36,062 nucleotides of DNA from Burkholderiales bacterium (GTDB lineage Bacteria > Pseudomonadota > Gammaproteobacteria > Burkholderiales > Burkholderiaceae_B): contig JAJTDO010000025.1 of assembly GCA_021300475.1 (NCBI GenBank), forward strand, positions 26,750 through 62,811, written 5' to 3'. The notes beneath the pieces are model-generated. The model saw only the letters and a program-made list of their open reading frames with translations, searched no databases and had not been told where the DNA came from. Position 1 is the first letter of the stretch. Each line of letters begins with the position of its first letter. The position numbers were made by a program, and so were the translations under genes. Shown one piece after another: positions 17,320-25,638 of this stretch.

Positions 17320-18342
17320 ATGCAAAACTTACTTGACCCAGCCATTCTGTTTTTTGTATTTGGTATTTTTGCAGGGCTCATGAAATCCGATCTTGAAGTG
17401 CCACCGGCCATTGCAAAATTCATTTCCATGTATTTGCTGATGGCCATTGGTTTGAAGGGTGGTTTTGCCCTGGCCGATGCTGGTTTTACCTCGCAGTTGG
17501 CTGCCAGTTTGTTTGCGGCTGTTACCATGGCCATTGTCGTACCGGCCTTGGGCTACCAGTTTCTTAAAAAGCGGATGTCGAAATTCGATGCAGCAGCCAT
17601 TGCAGCATCCTACGGTTCTGTCAGCGCTGTTACCTTTGTAACAGCAACCCAGTTTCTTGAAAATCATCAACTGCCGTTTGGCGGACACATGATGGTTGCG
17701 ATGGTGGTTATGGAATCTCCCGCCATTCTGATGGCGGTGTTGTTGGCCAACAGTTTGCGTCACGAGGCTGTGTCGTCTTCGTCTGTGCGGATTGTTGGAG
17801 GCGTGGGTGCGGCGCAGGCGGTGTTGGCACCGCCCACTGCTGTAATGTCCATTCCCGTGAAAAAAATTCTCCACGAGTCTTTCACCAACGGTTCGCACCT
17901 GCTGCTGTTGGGCTCGTTGCTGATCGGCTTTCTCAGCGCGGAGGCTGGGCAGGCGGTAATGCGACCTTTCGCAGTAGACCTGTTTAAAGGCTTGCTGGCT
18001 TTCTTTCTGCTGGACATGGGTTTGTTGGTTGCGAAAAACGCTGGGGGTTTGCGTAACATGCCGCCTGTCTTGTGGGTCTATGCGCTCGGCGGTCCTGTGT
18101 TGCATGCAAGCCTGGCGCTGTTGTTGGCCACAGTCTTGGGCATGGCGGTGGCAGACGCTGTTCTCCTCATGGTTCTGTCTGCCAGTGCATCCTATATTGT
18201 GGTGCCGGCCGTGTTGCGCTATGCAATACCAGAGGCTCAACCCTCTTTGTACTGCGGTTTGTCTTTGGGCATTACGTTTCCGTTCAATATGCTGTTGGGT
18301 ATTCCGGTGTACACGTTTGTTGCGCAGCGGTTTTTAGGGTGA
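17320..18342 (+). CDS. SbtA-like sodium-dependent bicarbonate permease
   Basis: A 340-aa protein with about ten membrane helices in two repeats. The opening (LDPAILFFVFGIFAGLMKSDLEVPPAIAKFISMYLLMAIGLKGG) is characteristic of the SbtA/DUF897 family; GLKGG in helix 2 and the SASASYIVVPAVLRYAIPEA-type segment near the C-terminus are conserved. Family members take up bicarbonate with sodium in cyanobacteria and are also found in proteobacteria. The neighbouring CbbR/CmpR-like regulator fits inorganic-carbon control. No carboxysome or RuBisCO gene and no PII-like SbtB is in the window, so here it may feed carboxylases in a heterotroph. Confidence 0.85.
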   Translation: MQNLLDPAILFFVFGIFAGLMKSDLEVPPAIAKFISMYLLMAIGLKGGFALADAGFTSQLAASLFAAVTMAIVVPALGYQFLKKRMSKFDAAAIAASYGSVSAVTFVTATQFLENHQLPFGGHMMVAMVVMESPAILMAVLLANSLRHEAVSSSSVRIVGGVGAAQAVLAPPTAVMSIPVKKILHESFTNGSHLLLLGSLLIGFLSAEAGQAVMRPFAVDLFKGLLAFFLLDMGLLVAKNAGGLRNMPPVLWVYALGGPVLHASLALLLATVLGMAVADAVLLMVLSASASYIVVPAVLRYAIPEAQPSLYCGLSLGITFPFNMLLGIPVYTFVAQRFLG

Positions 18343-18373
18343 AGCTGTTATTTTAAAGTGTTAAACTAGGCAA

Positions 18374-20164
18374 ATGAAAAATTTACAATTCATTTTGGGT
18401 TTACAAAATTCAACTCGTTCACGTCTTTGGTTGGTATACCTTGCGGCGGTATCGCTGATTGTTTTGCTCATCGTTTCCTTGGCGGCGTTTTCCATTGATC
18501 AGGAAAAACGGCGCTACCGGGAACGAGCCTCCATTGCGACACAAAATATTGCAGGGTTGTTGGACAGACACATGTCTGATGTCTTTGAAAAAATTGATAT
18601 CAGCTTGCAGGCGGGGGCATTTTTTTACACCAACCAGGCAGCCTCCGGTCGTCTGGATCCAAAAAAAATCAATGCTTACCTGGCAAATCAAACCCTGCTC
18701 CTTCCGGAACTAGACAGTTTGCGAATAATGGACAAAGAGGGTTTTGTTCGCTTTGGTATCAAAGAAAACAGAACAGATTTGGTAAATCTGAGCGACCGCG
18801 AGTATTTTATTCAAGCGCGCGATTCTTCAGACCAAAAGGTGGTGATCGCCGGCCCTATCTTTGCAAAAATTGCCCAAAAATGGGTCATCGTGTTTGCCAG
18901 AAGAATCAACGCGCCGGACGGTTCTTTCGCTGGCGTTATTTATGCCAACCTTCCCACCGTGAGTTTCCAAACTGTCTTTTCTTCAGTGGCCTTGGGCAAG
19001 TACGGCGCAGCCACTGTTCGCACCACAGACTTGGCCTTGGTGCACCGCGTACCAGACACAAAAAATGCAGTGGGCAGCAAAGGCGTTTCGAAACAATTGG
19101 CACAAGCCGTTGAATTGAAACCCGAGGGTGGCACCTATCTGGCCCCCACTGCGTTGGATGGCATTGAACGCACCAATGCCTATCGCCGTTTAAAAAATTA
19201 TCCTTTTTATGTGTTGGTGGGTTTGGCGACTGATGACTACTTGGGTGGCTGGGTAGAAAGCACCGTCATTGTCTCCGGCTTGGCAGGGCTTGCGATTCTA
19301 ATTACCTTGTTGGCGGCCATCCTTATTTTCCGGGCTCATCGACGCTTGCGTGAAGATTTGGCCGAGCGTACCCGCATCTCCAATGAATTGGCGCTTTCTC
19401 TGACCCAGCGGTCTGAATTGAACGCGCAACTTGAGGTGCGTATGAGGCAGGCCGAAGCGGCCAATGTGGCTAAAAATGCATTCCTTGCCAATATGTCCCA
19501 TGAAATGATGACTCCTTTGCACCAGATTGCCGGCGTGGCTGGTTTGGTGAAGCGTGGTCCCCTCACAGAACGCCAAAGCGATTGGATGCGCAAGCTTGAG
19601 ACTGCCAGTCTGCGCATGGCTGAAATCGTGGAAACTGTGCTTGAGCTGACAAAAATGGAGGCTGACCAACTCACCCTTGAAGAAACGCCTGTGCATTTGA
19701 GAGCATGGCTGGAGACGTTTTGTCTGCCATATGAACAGAAGGCGGCTGAAAAATCGGTGACGCTGCTTACAGACTTTTCAGCGCTGCCAGACCTGACGCT
19801 GATGGCCGATGTAAAGCAGATTCGGGTGGCCTTGCGCAACTACATCAACAATGCGGTGAAATTTACAGAACGAGGCGAAATTACAGTTCGGGTCGGCTTG
19901 CTTGAGCAAGACGATTTCACCGCCACGCTGAAATTTGAAGTGCAAGACACCGGTGTCGGTATTGAACCAGAGGCACTGGCACGCTTGTTCAGTATTTTTG
20001 AACAAGCGGACAACTCTTCCACACGCCCGCACGACGGCTTGGGCTTGGGTCTCGCCATTGTGCGCAAGTTGGCCCAATTGATGGGCGGTCAGGCGGGTTG
20101 CGATAGCCGCGTGGGGCAGGGCAGTTGTTTCTGGTTTACAGTCAGACTTAAAAAAGCGGTCTGA
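18374..20164 (+). CDS. Membrane sensor histidine kinase with extracytoplasmic Cache-type domain
   Basis: A 596-aa protein. A membrane helix (about 18-42) is followed by a periplasmic domain of about 240 residues with Cache-like features (LSDREYFIQARDSS, then VVIAGPIFAKIAQKWVIVFARRI), a second helix (about 292-320), a coiled linker, and a HisKA/HATPase core. The phosphoacceptor is His376 in SHEMMTPLH; most kinases have SHEMRTPL, so Arg is replaced by Met. The N-box NYINNAVKFTERG, G1 QDTGVGIEPE and G2 GLGLGLAIVRKL are intact. No receiver domain is fused and no response regulator is adjacent, so the partner is elsewhere. It starts 32 nt after the SbtA-like gene and may share its transcript. Confidence 0.9.
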   Translation: MKNLQFILGLQNSTRSRLWLVYLAAVSLIVLLIVSLAAFSIDQEKRRYRERASIATQNIAGLLDRHMSDVFEKIDISLQAGAFFYTNQAASGRLDPKKINAYLANQTLLLPELDSLRIMDKEGFVRFGIKENRTDLVNLSDREYFIQARDSSDQKVVIAGPIFAKIAQKWVIVFARRINAPDGSFAGVIYANLPTVSFQTVFSSVALGKYGAATVRTTDLALVHRVPDTKNAVGSKGVSKQLAQAVELKPEGGTYLAPTALDGIERTNAYRRLKNYPFYVLVGLATDDYLGGWVESTVIVSGLAGLAILITLLAAILIFRAHRRLREDLAERTRISNELALSLTQRSELNAQLEVRMRQAEAANVAKNAFLANMSHEMMTPLHQIAGVAGLVKRGPLTERQSDWMRKLETASLRMAEIVETVLELTKMEADQLTLEETPVHLRAWLETFCLPYEQKAAEKSVTLLTDFSALPDLTLMADVKQIRVALRNYINNAVKFTERGEITVRVGLLEQDDFTATLKFEVQDTGVGIEPEALARLFSIFEQADNSSTRPHDGLGLGLAIVRKLAQLMGGQAGCDSRVGQGSCFWFTVRLKKAV

Positions 20165-21867: not shown

Positions 21868-21896
21868 TTGTAATGAGAATCATTATCATTTACACT
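21868..21896 (+). promoter_or_regulatory. Fur-repressed promoter of the iron operon
   Basis: A -35 (TTGTAA, 21868-21873) and -10 (TACACT, 21891-21896) are separated by 17 bp. TGTAATGAGAATCATTATC (21869-21887) overlaps the spacer and matches 16 of 19 bases of the known Fur consensus. Iron-loaded Fur bound here would block RNA polymerase, so the operon is expected to be made when iron is scarce. Confidence 0.85.
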
Positions 21897-21934
21897 GTTA
21901 TTTCTGAAACTAAAAAACGCCCAAGGGTCTCTCT

Positions 21935-22273
21935 ATGGAAACTTCATTGCGAAAGCTCATCACGTTCTCTGTGATGTCTTTGTTGCTCAGTCAGCCAGTG
22001 TTTGCTGCAGATCAGGAAATCGCCTTGTTCATTCACGCGCATCAATTTCAACCCTCCGAGCTCAAGGTGCCTGCCCATCAACGCATCAGGCTGGCTGTAA
22101 AAAATCTGGATGACACGCCAGAGGAGTTTGAAAGCCACGCATTAAATCGAGAGAAGTTGATTCCGGCGGGTGGCTCGGCTGTTATTTACATCGGACCGTT
22201 AAAGCCGGGGCGATATGACTTTTTTGGTGAGTTCAATCCGTCGAGCGCCAAAGGCGTGGTCATTGTTGAATAA
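21935..22273 (+). CDS. Periplasmic cupredoxin-like protein of EfeO/FtrB type
   Basis: A 112-aa protein with a signal peptide (likely cut after PVFA) and a single cupredoxin-fold domain. The core has FQPSELKVPAHQRIRLAVKN, EEFESHALNREKLIPAG and GRYDFFGEF, matching the N-terminal domain of EfeO and stand-alone FtrB. There is no cysteine in the mature part, so it lacks a type 1 copper site; family members use Glu/His residues (here EFESH and REK) for iron or copper. The peptidase-like C-terminal domain of full EfeO is missing. AAGGG lies 7 nt before the ATG. FTR1 follows after 12 nt. Confidence 0.88.
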   Translation: METSLRKLITFSVMSLLLSQPVFAADQEIALFIHAHQFQPSELKVPAHQRIRLAVKNLDDTPEEFESHALNREKLIPAGGSAVIYIGPLKPGRYDFFGEFNPSSAKGVVIVE

Positions 22274-22285
22274 AGGAGTGCGAGC

Positions 22286-23125
22286 GTGTTTGGAACCGGA
22301 CTTATTGTTTTTAGGGAAACGCTTGAAGCGGCGCTTTTTGTGGGCATCATTGCAGCGGCAACGAACGGTGTATTCAATAGAACCCGTTGGCTTTCATTTG
22401 GCATTCTTGCAGGTGCGTTTGGCTCTGCTTTACTGGCTTTGACTATGCGTGAGCTCAGTGTCTGGGCAGATGGCATTGGTCAGGATTTCGTTTCAACTTT
22501 GGTGTTGAGCCTCGCGCTTTGCATGCTGGCATGGCACTGTATCTGGGTCTCCACCCACTCTCAGGCCTTGGCAGGGGATGCGAAATGCCTCGGAGCCTCA
22601 ATGGTGCGGGGGCAAAAAACCTTGGGGGCACTTGCCGTGGCGGTTGCATTGTCGGTATTGCGCGAGGGCGCTGAGACGGTTCTCTTTGTCGCGGGTTTAA
22701 TGGCGCACTCAGAGTCGTCTCCCGGGGCGCTCGCATTCAGTATCACCTCAGGGTTGGCGGTTGGCATGCTGGTCGGTTGGCTGCTTTATCGGGGGCTTGG
22801 AAAAATACAACCGCGACGCCTTTTTCTTGTCACCAACGGTTTAATCCTTCTGCTGGCGGGCAGTTTGGCAAGTCAGCTTGCCAAAACGCTGAGTCAGGCT
22901 GGTTGGGTCTCCACTCTTGATGAGCGTGCCTGGGACATCTCTTCGCTGATGCCTGACGACACCCTACTTGGCATGGCGTTGCATGGTGTCATGGGTTATG
23001 AAGCCAGCCCCAGCCAACTGCAGTTGCTTTTTTATCTCTCTGCAATATTGCTGATTTCGGTTTCCGCAAAGCTTGTGAGTTTCAACATTTCACAGTGCAG
23101 GCACTTAAGGTCCACAGTCGCCTGA
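22286..23125 (+). CDS. FTR1-family high-affinity iron permease
   Basis: A 279-aa inner-membrane protein with seven or so helices. It has both REXXE iron-transport motifs: RETLE near the N-terminus (FRETLEAALF) and REGAE in the middle (VLREGAETVLF). These bind and move ferric iron during permeation. It starts at the GTG at 22286, with GGAG 7 nt upstream. It would work with the cupredoxin before it and the peroxidase after it, as EfeU works with EfeO and EfeB. FtrC is an equally good name. Fur control is inherited from the operon promoter. Confidence 0.92.
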   Translation: MFGTGLIVFRETLEAALFVGIIAAATNGVFNRTRWLSFGILAGAFGSALLALTMRELSVWADGIGQDFVSTLVLSLALCMLAWHCIWVSTHSQALAGDAKCLGASMVRGQKTLGALAVAVALSVLREGAETVLFVAGLMAHSESSPGALAFSITSGLAVGMLVGWLLYRGLGKIQPRRLFLVTNGLILLLAGSLASQLAKTLSQAGWVSTLDERAWDISSLMPDDTLLGMALHGVMGYEASPSQLQLLFYLSAILLISVSAKLVSFNISQCRHLRSTVA

Positions 23126-23142
23126 TATCAAAAGGATTTTCC

Positions 23143-23886
23143 ATGATTTTTAAAAAAATGGCCATGCTGGTCGTGGCCCCGCTTTGTCTTTTTAATGCGA
23201 ACTCAAGTCTGGCCGGCCCCGAGGACTACATCAGACTCCCCGTTGTGGAATACGGTGAGCGTGAGATCGACTTTAAATCTGGTGTGCAGCGTAACCGCGA
23301 TGGCAGCAGTCAAGCGGCAACCTCGATTGGTTACGGCTTTACCCCCAGTGCGCAGTGGTTCACAGAAGTGTATGCAAAATACGCAAGGCAACCGGAAGAG
23401 GGGCAGCGTTTTGATGCTTATGAATGGGAAAACAGATTTCAGCTGACACAAACCGGTCGGTACCCTGTGGATCTTGGTTTCTTGCTTGAAATTGAGCGCC
23501 CCAAGGACAGAACAGAAGGCTATGAAGTGACCTATGGGCCCATGTTGCAGTCTGAGTGGGGAAAGTTTCAAGGCAATGCAAACCTCTTCATACAAAAGCA
23601 TGTTCGCGCAACCGAGGCTTTCGACACCGAACTTCGCTATCAACTGCAACTTAAATACCGCCACGCAGAAAAGCTGGAGTGGGGTGTTCAGGCGTTTGGA
23701 AATACGGGGCAGTGGAATCATTGGAGCGCGAGATCCGCGCAGGAATTCAAGATCGGTCCTGCATTGTTTGGAAAAATAAAATTGGGGGGCAAAGAGGCGA
23801 TTAAATGGAATGCAGCGCTACTCACGGGCACCACACAGGCAACACCGAGCAACACATTCAGATTACAAGCGGAGTATGAGTTTTAA
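23143..23886 (+). CDS. Probable outer-membrane beta-barrel in the iron operon
   Basis: A 247-aa protein with a signal peptide ending near NSSLAG and a mature part of alternating amphipathic strands (SIGYGFTPSAQWFTEVYAKY, ELRYQLQLKYRH), ending in phenylalanine. This is the usual look of an outer-membrane barrel, perhaps ten to twelve strands. The ATG at 23143 follows AAGGA by 6 nt; an earlier ATG-type start in the FTR1 gene is rejected. Its place between the permease and the peroxidase suggests a role in iron entry or in anchoring the periplasmic partners, but it has no TonB-receptor plug and is far too short for one. The family is unknown to me. Confidence 0.75.
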   Translation: MIFKKMAMLVVAPLCLFNANSSLAGPEDYIRLPVVEYGEREIDFKSGVQRNRDGSSQAATSIGYGFTPSAQWFTEVYAKYARQPEEGQRFDAYEWENRFQLTQTGRYPVDLGFLLEIERPKDRTEGYEVTYGPMLQSEWGKFQGNANLFIQKHVRATEAFDTELRYQLQLKYRHAEKLEWGVQAFGNTGQWNHWSARSAQEFKIGPALFGKIKLGGKEAIKWNAALLTGTTQATPSNTFRLQAEYEF

Positions 23887-23891
23887 ACGTG

Positions 23892-25070
23892 ATGGGCAAA
23901 CAATTTAATCGTCTTTTATTGGCGCTGATTCTAATTTCGCAAATACCCATATTGGACGGATGTACCGAGGCTTCAACAGAGCAGGCTACACTCAGCCCAA
24001 TTGCAAAACTTGGAGCCAAGGCTTTTGTCGACTCCTCTTTGTCAGCCTCTGGTCTTCAATCGTGCGCGTCTTGCCATGCGCCGGAGACCGGACACTCAGC
24101 GCCAAACTCAGCACCTGTTCAACTGGGGGGTACTGATTTGAACATTCAGGGCTTGCGCAATGCACAGACGCTTCGCTACCTTGTTCACAACCCCGCTTTT
24201 CATTTTGATGAATCCGGTAAACCTGTGGGGGGCTTTTTTTGGGATGGTCGAGCCGATAGCTTGTCTGAACAAGCAGCAGGCCCACTGTTGGGCGCGCGGG
24301 AAATGGCGAATCCAGACAAAGCAGCAGTCGTTGCAAAAATAGCCCGTTCAAATTGGGCCAACGAATTCAAACAGGTCTTTGGTTCAAACATTTTTCAAAA
24401 TATTGATCTCGCCTTCGAAAAACTGACATTTGCGTTGCAACAATTCCAATTGGAAGACGCTGCATTCAACAGTTTCACCAGCAAATATGATGCGGTGCTT
24501 AGGGGGCGGGCCACACTCACTGAGCAAGAGGCGCGTGGTCTAAGTGCGTTTAATGACCCAAACAAAGGCAACTGTGCCGCTTGTCACACGTCTTCCAAAG
24601 CACCTGGTGGCGATCACCCTGTGTTCACGGATTTCAGTTATGACAATCTCGGAATTCCCCGGAATACACGCATCTCTGCCAATGAAGATTCCACTTACTT
24701 TGACCTGGGGTTGTGTGCACGCAGTGGGCTGACAGATCGTACTGATCTTTGTGGAGCGTTCAAGGTGCCCACCTTACGTAATGTGGCGATTAAACCCTCT
24801 TTCTTTCACAACGGTAAGTTCACCACCCTAAAAGATGTGATCAGCTTTTATGTCCAACGCGATACCCATCCTGAAAAATGGTATGGACGAAATTCAGATG
24901 GTGCTGTGAAGAAATTCGATGATCTGCCTACCCTGTATCAGGCCAATGTGAATGTCACAGAAGGCCCTTACAACAGGAAACTTAGTGAGGTGCCTGCTTT
25001 AAGCGATTCCGAAATCGACGATGTGATTGCATTTTTAATGACGCTGACCGACGGTTGGATGGGGCGGTGA
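23892..25070 (+). CDS. Di-heme cytochrome c peroxidase/MauG-family protein, possible lipoprotein
   Basis: About 392 aa with two heme c motifs, CASCH (near residue 60) and CAACH (near residue 230). Other family marks are FFWDGRADSLSEQA after the first heme and SFFHNGKFTTLKDVISFYV near the C-terminus. Such proteins reduce peroxide or carry out heme-based oxidation in the periplasm. The N-terminus has a hydrophobic stretch ending LDGC, a possible but imperfect lipobox. The start may be GTG at 23889 or ATG at 23892. As the last gene of the Fur operon it stands where EfeB, a DyP-type heme peroxidase, stands in EfeUOB, which suggests it handles iron redox state for FTR1. Confidence 0.9.
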   Translation: MGKQFNRLLLALILISQIPILDGCTEASTEQATLSPIAKLGAKAFVDSSLSASGLQSCASCHAPETGHSAPNSAPVQLGGTDLNIQGLRNAQTLRYLVHNPAFHFDESGKPVGGFFWDGRADSLSEQAAGPLLGAREMANPDKAAVVAKIARSNWANEFKQVFGSNIFQNIDLAFEKLTFALQQFQLEDAAFNSFTSKYDAVLRGRATLTEQEARGLSAFNDPNKGNCAACHTSSKAPGGDHPVFTDFSYDNLGIPRNTRISANEDSTYFDLGLCARSGLTDRTDLCGAFKVPTLRNVAIKPSFFHNGKFTTLKDVISFYVQRDTHPEKWYGRNSDGAVKKFDDLPTLYQANVNVTEGPYNRKLSEVPALSDSEIDDVIAFLMTLTDGWMGR

Positions 25071-25163: not shown

Positions 25164-25638
25164 TCAGCCGGTGGTCTGCGTTAAGGACTGAAGCTTCTTT
25201 TTGAAAAACTGATTTTCGCTCTTTCTTGCATACTCCCAGTCATTCAGCTCGGGCACGTCAAGTGCCTCAGTGGAGTCGGGTTTCTCTATTAACGAATCCA
25301 GGTCCACTGTGCGCACTCCCCATGCACCGTAAGGCTTATTGTTTGCCCCTGTAAAGTTCAATTGCGATTATTTTCGCATCAGGGTATTTCCGCTTGAAAT
25401 ACAGAACAGAATATCCTACGTTCGCCCCAGCATCCACGATGGTCATGGCCTGCGCGGGGAAAGCAGGGTGAGAATACTCTTCCTTGATAAATATTTGCTG
25501 GAATACCTCTGGGTCTGTTTCGCACATTCGACAAATAAAGCGACCCTCCAATCCCTCAATTGGGAAGGTGATTTCATCGATTACAAATTTGCTAAATATT
25601 TCGACCGGCACAGAATTTTCACCAATATGCAATCTCAT
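25164..25638 (-). pseudogene. Degraded FkbM-family methyltransferase
   Basis: The first frame (from 25638) has an N-terminal domain and the SAM-binding motif TIVDAGANVGYSVLYFKRKY followed by AKIIAIE, as in FkbM methyltransferases, then stops at 25336. A second frame continues with GANNKPYGAWGVRTVDLDSLIEK, which resembles the later xVxTVTLDSLLE strand of the family, and ends at 25164. Roughly 50 residues expected between these parts are missing and the frame shifts. The LKIDIEGAE motif expected after it is also not found. The gene is therefore a remnant. It is isolated on the minus strand, with no sugar or capsule genes nearby, consistent with a decayed transferred gene. Confidence 0.65.

Follow-up and report, generated by a model that had tools for sequence, protein, structure and literature searches.

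For FTR1-type systems, the passage of unchelated iron through the outer membrane is usually left to general porins. A run of four genes in a 36,062-nucleotide (nt) stretch from the draft genome of a Burkholderiales bacterium (GenBank assembly GCA_021300475.1, contig JAJTDO010000025.1; we call the whole stretch the window) raises the question of whether such a system may bring its own channel and what a di-heme protein encoded behind the permease contributes to it. The four open reading frames, on the plus strand at 21935-25070 and separated by 12, 17 and 5 nt as read from the sequence, encode a cupredoxin-fold protein, an FTR1 iron permease, a predicted outer-membrane beta-barrel and a di-heme c-type cytochrome of the MauG/BthA type (Table 1). 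An earlier description made from the DNA letters (the sequence-only reading) had named the same products with gaps of 12, 17 and about 5 nt, and Pfam, AlphaFold2 and the sequence bear it out. We propose that the window holds a Fur-boxed iron-import operon consisting of a recurring three-gene core and an added di-heme protein that would oxidise Fe2+ with H2O2 for FTR1, and we put the probability of this at about 0.55.

In such an operon, the barrel would serve as a 12-strand outer-membrane channel admitting iron to the periplasm, the cupredoxin-fold protein would bind iron at an acidic site and pass it on, and the FTR1 permease would move it across the inner membrane. The di-heme protein is most likely a peroxide-consuming enzyme: in the operon where its relatives usually stand its electrons may come from a flavoprotein chain, and in the window it would oxidise Fe2+ with H2O2, feeding Fe3+ to FTR1. 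We infer iron as the cargo, the role of the channel and the hand-over of iron; the electron donor and the iron oxidation step by the di-heme protein, the least certain part of the scheme, are put forward tentatively.

Recurrence and control of the cupredoxin-FTR1-barrel core

A search of 300 genomes from the order, that of the window among them, found FTR1 at E 1e-10 or better in 93. The matches fell into two groups: 30 other genomes had E values below 1e-43, with 35 to 61% identity, and all remaining ones reached 1.2e-25 at best. Each of the 30 genomes contributed one locus and one of them also a second copy; nine loci of the second group (EfeU/FtrC-type) served as controls. Among the 30 window-type loci a cupredoxin gene was present in 29 and a barrel gene in 27, two of the latter (L037 and L047) being broken or short as read, and wherever the parts were present they stood in the order cupredoxin-FTR1-barrel on a single strand; few other families of open reading frames recurred around them. 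The controls had the cupredoxin in eight of nine cases and the barrel in one. In a second collection, the best 80 of at least 543 loci (the named loci, whose rates hold for close relatives) contained the cupredoxin in 80/80 and the barrel in 58/80 cases; their sources are Comamonadaceae, Thiobacillus, Gallionella, Limnobacter (without the barrel), Lysobacter and others. The two sets overlap in at least four pairs (L035/L126, L042/L177, L044/L202 and L047/L170), some of the 22 named loci lacking a barrel end soon past FTR1 (L133, L152, L181), and several order contigs end within 5 kb (e.g. L045, L051, L060, L063). That a barrel accompanies this type of permease, as the window alone had suggested, holds in both sets (27/30 and 58/80) and is joined by the predicted barrel fold described below.

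Scored against TGATAATNATTATCA, which we take to be the 7-1-7 Fur consensus, the window contains a single site with at most one mismatch, TGAGAATCATTATCA, where 0.01 would be expected by chance in 36 kb, and this box ends 46 nt upstream of the first gene. The 19-mer at 21869-21887 matches 16 of 19 positions, a score equalled by none of 2,000 single-base shuffles, and in the whole genome the 20-mer of the box has one exact site and one further place at three mismatches. By these measures the four-gene operon is Fur-boxed at its promoter, as the sequence-only reading had claimed, and it is probably repressed by Fur. The sigma70 promoter placed by the same reading beneath the box fares less well: the two do overlap, but the candidate is weak at 8/12, a scan with a cut-off of 9/12 found no sigma70 promoter at the Fur box, and over 6 kb that scan returned one site compared with 4.3 in shuffles.

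Boxes were found in most related promoters. In 25 of the 29 window-type core promoters of the order a Fur-like box scored better than 95% of shuffles, which for core and control promoters preserve single-base content only; L040, L042, L050 and L056 failed, as did L071, the second copy in G049 (p 0.143). Control promoters without a barrel had such a box in 0/7 cases, and the single control with a barrel, L072, had one. Of the named-set promoters, 41 of 77 reached at least 11/14 to the Fur consensus versus 1.1% of 1,418 background stretches from the same loci. As far as sequence can tell, cupredoxin-FTR1-barrel is a recurring, usually Fur-boxed operon.

The trio is also carried by one Pseudoalteromonas and one Alteromonas plasmid (L236, L237), in whose records the barrel is annotated as a hypothetical protein; there it lies downstream of genes annotated as response regulator and ATP-binding protein, and its control may differ. 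On one contig (L037 and L071) permease and barrel occur twice, the barrel interrupted in both copies as read and the cupredoxin undetected beside one of them.

The product of the third gene, which matches no Pfam or NCBIfam family at E 0.01, is predicted to be an outer-membrane beta-barrel. The AlphaFold2 model, built on an alignment of 26 homologues, has 12 strands and a mean predicted local distance difference test score (pLDDT) of 88.1, the barrel being closed and even-stranded by prediction and ending in a terminal Phe; residues 1-24, where a signal stretch is seen by eye, have pLDDT below 50, as expected for a signal peptide. Its best solved matches are outer-membrane channels and translocators, namely FapF (Z score 21.5), a COG4313 channel (20.8), autotransporter barrels, KdgM and NanC (17.7); FapF, the COG4313 channel and NanC share 8 to 10% identity with it. 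The likeness is one of barrel architecture only, and we rejected a transfer of function from the fold matches. In three of the 30 order loci (L051, L057, L059) and four of the 80 named loci (L183, L184, L186, L201), FTR1 and barrel form one open reading frame of about 520 residues, in which a hydrophobic, signal-like stretch ending in Ala separates the two parts. Because both are encoded as one frame, the barrel is tied to the permease, and the fusion would be a polyprotein cleaved by signal peptidase. With a barrel that is usually Fur-boxed, accompanies the permease and at times is fused to it, the question of outer-membrane iron passage becomes testable.

The R, E and E of the RETLE and REGAE motifs of the window permease are invariant in a 28-row alignment, and the permease is the only FTR1 match in its genome (97.38% complete, 118 contigs, 2.73 Mb). 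The draft has no match to FeoB_C, Dyp_perox_N or FMN_bind, an absence that in a draft is not proof, and with these matches lacking FTR1 may be the organism's main route for unchelated iron.

The nearest solved structure to the window cupredoxin is Brucella FtrB (8VUK, E 1.9e-12), which requires D118 for copper and has H121 as the other proposed ligand and E84, E86 and E93 as a proposed iron site (PMC11966278; this and the other papers are cited from parts of their texts). Aligned to 8VUK, the window protein keeps the three iron-site glutamates and carries Gly and Asn in place of Asp118 and His121. Among 29 core cupredoxins of the order, 23 have Gly and one has Asp at the Asp118 position, and at the His121 position 12 have His and 16 have Asn; FtrB of other clusters may also carry Gly at 118 (PMC11966278). 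Because the glutamates are kept and the FtrB copper ligand positions are changed, carrying iron is a likelier role for the window cupredoxin than oxidising it with copper, and copper is not favoured as its cofactor, the protein having no Cys and both ligand positions replaced. The proposal that it replaces EfeO does not stand as worded, since the protein is a Cup protein on its own, closest to FtrB of FtrABCD, and as such a known kind of part.

The di-heme protein and its relatives

The fourth protein has two CXXCH motifs; among solved structures it is closest to BthA (6NX0, E 4.5e-77) and MauG (E 5.3e-59). With residue roles taken from PMC6405878 and their places in the alignment being our own assignment, a Tyr stands at the BthA position of the sixth ligand and the catalytic Glu is kept; the inter-heme Trp of MauG is present, where BthA has Ser, and a Cys pair is shared with BthA. 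The protein is the only CCP_MauG match in the genome and scores 84.8 bits with the MauG equivalog model (cut-off 443.85). Unlike that of MauG, its gene lies outside any mau operon, and unlike that of BthA, which neighbours a putative phosphatase gene (PMC6405878), it stands behind the core. An ILDGC stretch seen by eye makes the window protein a possible lipoprotein, and its clade differs from BthA and MauG in being lipoprotein-like by eye and in having Fur-like boxes. The start of the gene was, like that of the barrel gene, picked by eye inside the listed open reading frame, and a GTG at 23889 is a possible alternative.

The sequence-only reading had expected the order of all four genes to be conserved and had named beforehand its absence from related genomes as the outcome that counts against it. 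The order is missing from 30/30 order relatives, none of which has a di-heme gene within about 5 kb where the contig allows, and from 79 of the 80 named loci; a conserved four-gene operon is thus rejected. The one named locus with a di-heme gene, L130 from a Comamonadaceae bin, has it first and not last: di-heme, cupredoxin, FTR1 and barrel form one run, with 31 nt between the first two genes. The Fur-like site before the L130 di-heme gene matches the consensus at 12/19, no better than shuffles (p 0.135), and scores above all 40 shuffles with the matrix of core promoters; none of the eight best Fur-like sites lies in the di-heme-cupredoxin interval.

Homologues of the di-heme protein occur in 48 of the 300 order genomes (E 1e-40, own included) and in 42 of 399 from the family of L130 (E 1e-100, that of L130 included). 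In the 30 best loci of this family, viewed with 1.5-kb flanks, a porin-like gene adjoins the di-heme gene in 28, the exceptions being L130 itself and L224. We then took 35 loci with longer flanks, comprising the same-genus homologue, five of the six closest in the order (without L107, where the gene lies at the end of the contig) and, from the family of L130, the 29 best apart from L130 itself. Genes for a porin, FMN_bind and ApbE lie downstream of the di-heme gene in 33 of these and one for a cytochrome-b-like protein too in 32, giving a five-gene operon (e.g. L242, L243, L255, L257) of di-heme protein, porin-like barrel, FMN_bind, ApbE and a b561/DUF4405-like protein (a weak match). Two loci lack the porin, FMN_bind and ApbE set: the same-genus homologue, L239, stands alone, and L259 lies by FeoAB. 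FeoA-FeoB are near the di-heme gene in seven of the 35, downstream in five and upstream in two. In Pfam scans of example operons, FMN_bind, ApbE, FeoA and FeoB were above the cut-off and b561 and DUF4405 below it, and Porin_O_P was above it in two porins and absent in the third. The operon of di-heme, porin, FMN_bind, ApbE and b-type proteins appears to be an independent periplasmic system for iron redox chemistry.

A Fur-like site was found upstream of 32 of 35 close homologues of the di-heme protein (at least 51% identity; failing L209, L220 and L077) and of one of 23 distant ones, each tested against 40 dinucleotide shuffles with a matrix from 24 core promoters. The 35 include L206 but not one locus whose upstream DNA was too short; all 23 distant homologues are from the order set and most close ones from the family of L130, the close ones of the order set passing in 5/6 cases. 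The window di-heme gene is a rare add-on; most of its close relatives are found in a different operon that often has a Fur box, and from which the gene seems to have been taken.

In a tree of 60 di-heme proteins, from which rows of 300 residues or fewer were dropped, the window protein and that of L130 (as L206) are sisters (support 100/99), and the pair lies inside a 39-row clade (97/99) with porin-linked di-heme proteins; the fork that puts it among porin-linked rows rather than beside some of them has support 87/92. The FTR1 tree joins the window with L126 (99/86), whose 12.8 kb contain no di-heme gene, and its supported branches require two changes in di-heme linkage. The barrel tree agrees; these two trees covered 41 of the 80 named permeases and 27 of their barrels, plus the window. 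As the di-heme proteins are sisters but the permeases and barrels are not, the di-heme gene appears to have joined the core more than once, or to have been lost or exchanged, and a single origin of the linkage by simple vertical descent is unsupported, with the di-heme tree disagreeing with the other two. Co-occurrence of the di-heme clade and the core in genomes showed no excess: six other genomes matched the di-heme protein at 1e-130 or better, and one of these (G003) has a window-type FTR1. The repeated pairing of one di-heme clade with one core is the main sign of a shared function.

What the di-heme protein may do

Only Fe3+ that its oxidase produces in situ is taken up by yeast Ftr1p, and the same is proposed for bacterial FtrC (PMC11966278); BthA turns over H2O2 with an external donor (PMC6405878). 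Because no FMN_bind protein was found and the cupredoxin is without the FtrB copper ligands, Fe2+ would be the nearest electron donor in the window. Several points weigh against a di-heme iron oxidase serving FTR1. All but two of the core loci examined lack a linked di-heme gene, and with the Asp118 position not Asp in 28/29 core cupredoxins and His121 kept in 12/29, a dedicated di-heme ferroxidase would not be a general need. An FTR1 of one fungus is reported to work without a ferroxidase partner (PMC11836134), MauG has been called a poor peroxidase and the function of BthA undiscovered (PMC6405878). The di-heme clade adjoins FeoAB in 7/35 loci, a poor site for a ferroxidase as FeoB takes Fe2+, and the same-genus homologue L239 stands alone, with no FTR1 found in its 66%-complete genome. 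The top fold match of the barrel, FapF, is a polypeptide exporter, which weakens the assignment of the cargo. We hold ferroxidation by the di-heme protein and protection from peroxide about equal, with shared regulation and protein modification behind them, and the usual company of the di-heme gene seems to favour peroxide handling or reduction as much as ferroxidation.

As a peroxide guard, the di-heme protein would clear periplasmic H2O2 and spare incoming Fe2+ from Fenton chemistry without feeding FTR1. This role, which is possible and yet on the unlikely side, is compatible with both neighbourhoods of the gene, FeoAB and FTR1, and with the Fur-like boxes seen in both settings, and the catalytic Glu and heme motifs are retained; the operon, however, encodes no electron donor, and FMN_bind was not found in the genome, in which other donors were not searched for.

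The linkage of the di-heme gene to the core is rare, with two cases among roughly 105-110 loci including the window, and in these the gene holds different positions; the homologue from the same genus stands by itself. Such a pattern would be expected if the di-heme gene had merely landed behind or before the core under a Fur promoter, with a function unrelated to that of FTR1. We consider this unlikely, as the two linkages involve the same di-heme clade in separated permease lineages, and that clade carries Fur-like boxes elsewhere.

The sequence-only reading saw in the operon a rebuilt EfeUOB, in which EfeB, a DyP peroxidase, is replaced by a dedicated di-heme protein and EfeO by the cupredoxin. 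EfeUOB and the window share an FTR1 permease, an EfeO-type cupredoxin fold, a heme enzyme and a Fur box, and the di-heme gene is part of the operon in both the window and L130. Its view of an FTR1 system without the usual EfeO and EfeB is supported: the operon has no M75 domain, the 112-residue protein matching Cupredoxin_1 only (the M75 search covered the operon), and the draft genome (97% complete) gave no DyP (PF04261) match in a search that was positive in three of 14 control genomes. The window further differs from EfeUOB in having the barrel and in its permease, which at 125.5 bits is under the cut-off of 255 of the NCBIfam EfeU equivalog model. Substitution for EfeB is nevertheless quite improbable. 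Most three-gene cores are without a linked di-heme gene (EfeB elsewhere in those genomes was not searched for), and the di-heme clade is mostly found in another operon; since that operon is sometimes accompanied by FeoAB and FeoB takes Fe2+, a replacement of EfeB is not the obvious reading. The role of EfeB is itself unsettled between electron shuttling for iron oxidation and release of iron from heme (PMC3577903), and the protein has been called a likely di-heme DUF1111 protein in PMC3143127 versus DyP in PMC3577903.

Least probable of all is a modifier like MauG or MbnH that oxidises a Trp or Tyr of a partner, the barrel or the cupredoxin, for its maturation: the MauG-type Tyr ligand, inter-heme Trp and catalytic Glu would suit it and a barrel gene is found in both operon types, but the same barrel and cupredoxin families lack a linked di-heme gene in most loci and no modified residue is known.

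Known systems and the surroundings of the operon

FTR1 with a Cup protein is already known from FtrABCD and EfeUOB. The ferrous-iron transporter FtrABCD of Brucella and Bordetella is like the window in combining an FTR1-type permease with a lone Cup protein, that of the window being nearest to FtrB with the Glu iron site kept; unlike FtrABCD, the four window genes have no P19 (FtrA) or FtrD among their Pfam matches, the D118 and H121 copper ligands are replaced, and a barrel and a di-heme protein are added. In Acidithiobacillus, the porin-like (OprB-type) FeoP behind a Fur box is predicted to act with feoABC in ferrous uptake (PMC2631029), with another permease and another porin family than in the window. 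Di-heme peroxidase genes lie beside iron-uptake genes in imelysin/DUF1111 operons as well (PMC3143127), but these have DUF1111 and imelysin where the window has CCP_MauG. The usual operon of the di-heme clade resembles the clusters of flavinylation genes (ApbE, FMN_bind) and iron transporters: published examples pair flavinylation genes with VIT1 or with P19-FTR1 and include PepSY clusters repressed by Fur (PMC8238504), though the window operon, unlike these, has no flavin gene, and the words porin, peroxidase and DUF4405 are absent from the main text of PMC8238504. In the literature searched (open-licence papers, by titles and the starts of abstracts), none of the entries listed described a barrel paired with FTR1, a fusion of the two or a MauG-type enzyme in such an operon, nor the flavin-linked di-heme operon.

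A wider generalisation, which we regard as speculative and rather unlikely in its full form, is that in many Proteobacteria FTR1 import would span the envelope with its own outer-membrane channel, even as one polyprotein, and that a MauG-type di-heme protein from a flavin-linked, often Fur-boxed iron operon could plug in as an H2O2-driven iron oxidase. If true, orphan BthA/MauG-like di-heme enzymes would take part in iron supply, and the barrel listed as a hypothetical protein in plasmid records would gain a likely function.

Table 1. Promoter elements and genes of the operon, in window coordinates
Feature	Position	Strand	Basis
Weak sigma70-like promoter, TTGTAA (21868-21873), 17 nt, TACACT (21891-21896)	21868..21896	+	8/12, by eye; overlaps Fur box
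Fur box TGAGAATCATTATCA, 13/14 to TGATAATNATTATCA	21874..21888	+	Consensus scan of window
Cupredoxin-fold protein, 112 residues, FtrB/EfeO-Cup type, no Cys	21935..22273	+	Pfam PF13473 Cupredoxin_1 9.2e-29; nearest structure FtrB 8VUK
FTR1 iron permease, 279 residues, RETLE and REGAE motifs	22286..23125	+	Pfam PF03239 FTR1 1.4e-31; alignment
Predicted outer-membrane beta-barrel, 247 residues, 12 strands, C-terminal Phe	23143..23886	+	AlphaFold2 model, Foldseek, VIA-align
Di-heme MauG/BthA-type c-type cytochrome, 392 residues	23892..25070	+	Pfam PF03150 CCP_MauG 3.4e-36; BthA/MauG structure matches; alignment

Upstream of the operon, at 17320-20164, a bicarbonate transporter gene (Sbt_1) is followed by a gene for a dCache histidine kinase. 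Behind the operon, on the minus strand at 25336-25638, a 100-residue open reading frame without a Pfam match contains the stretch DAGANVGYS, which by eye resembles methyltransferases, and is perhaps a gene remnant.

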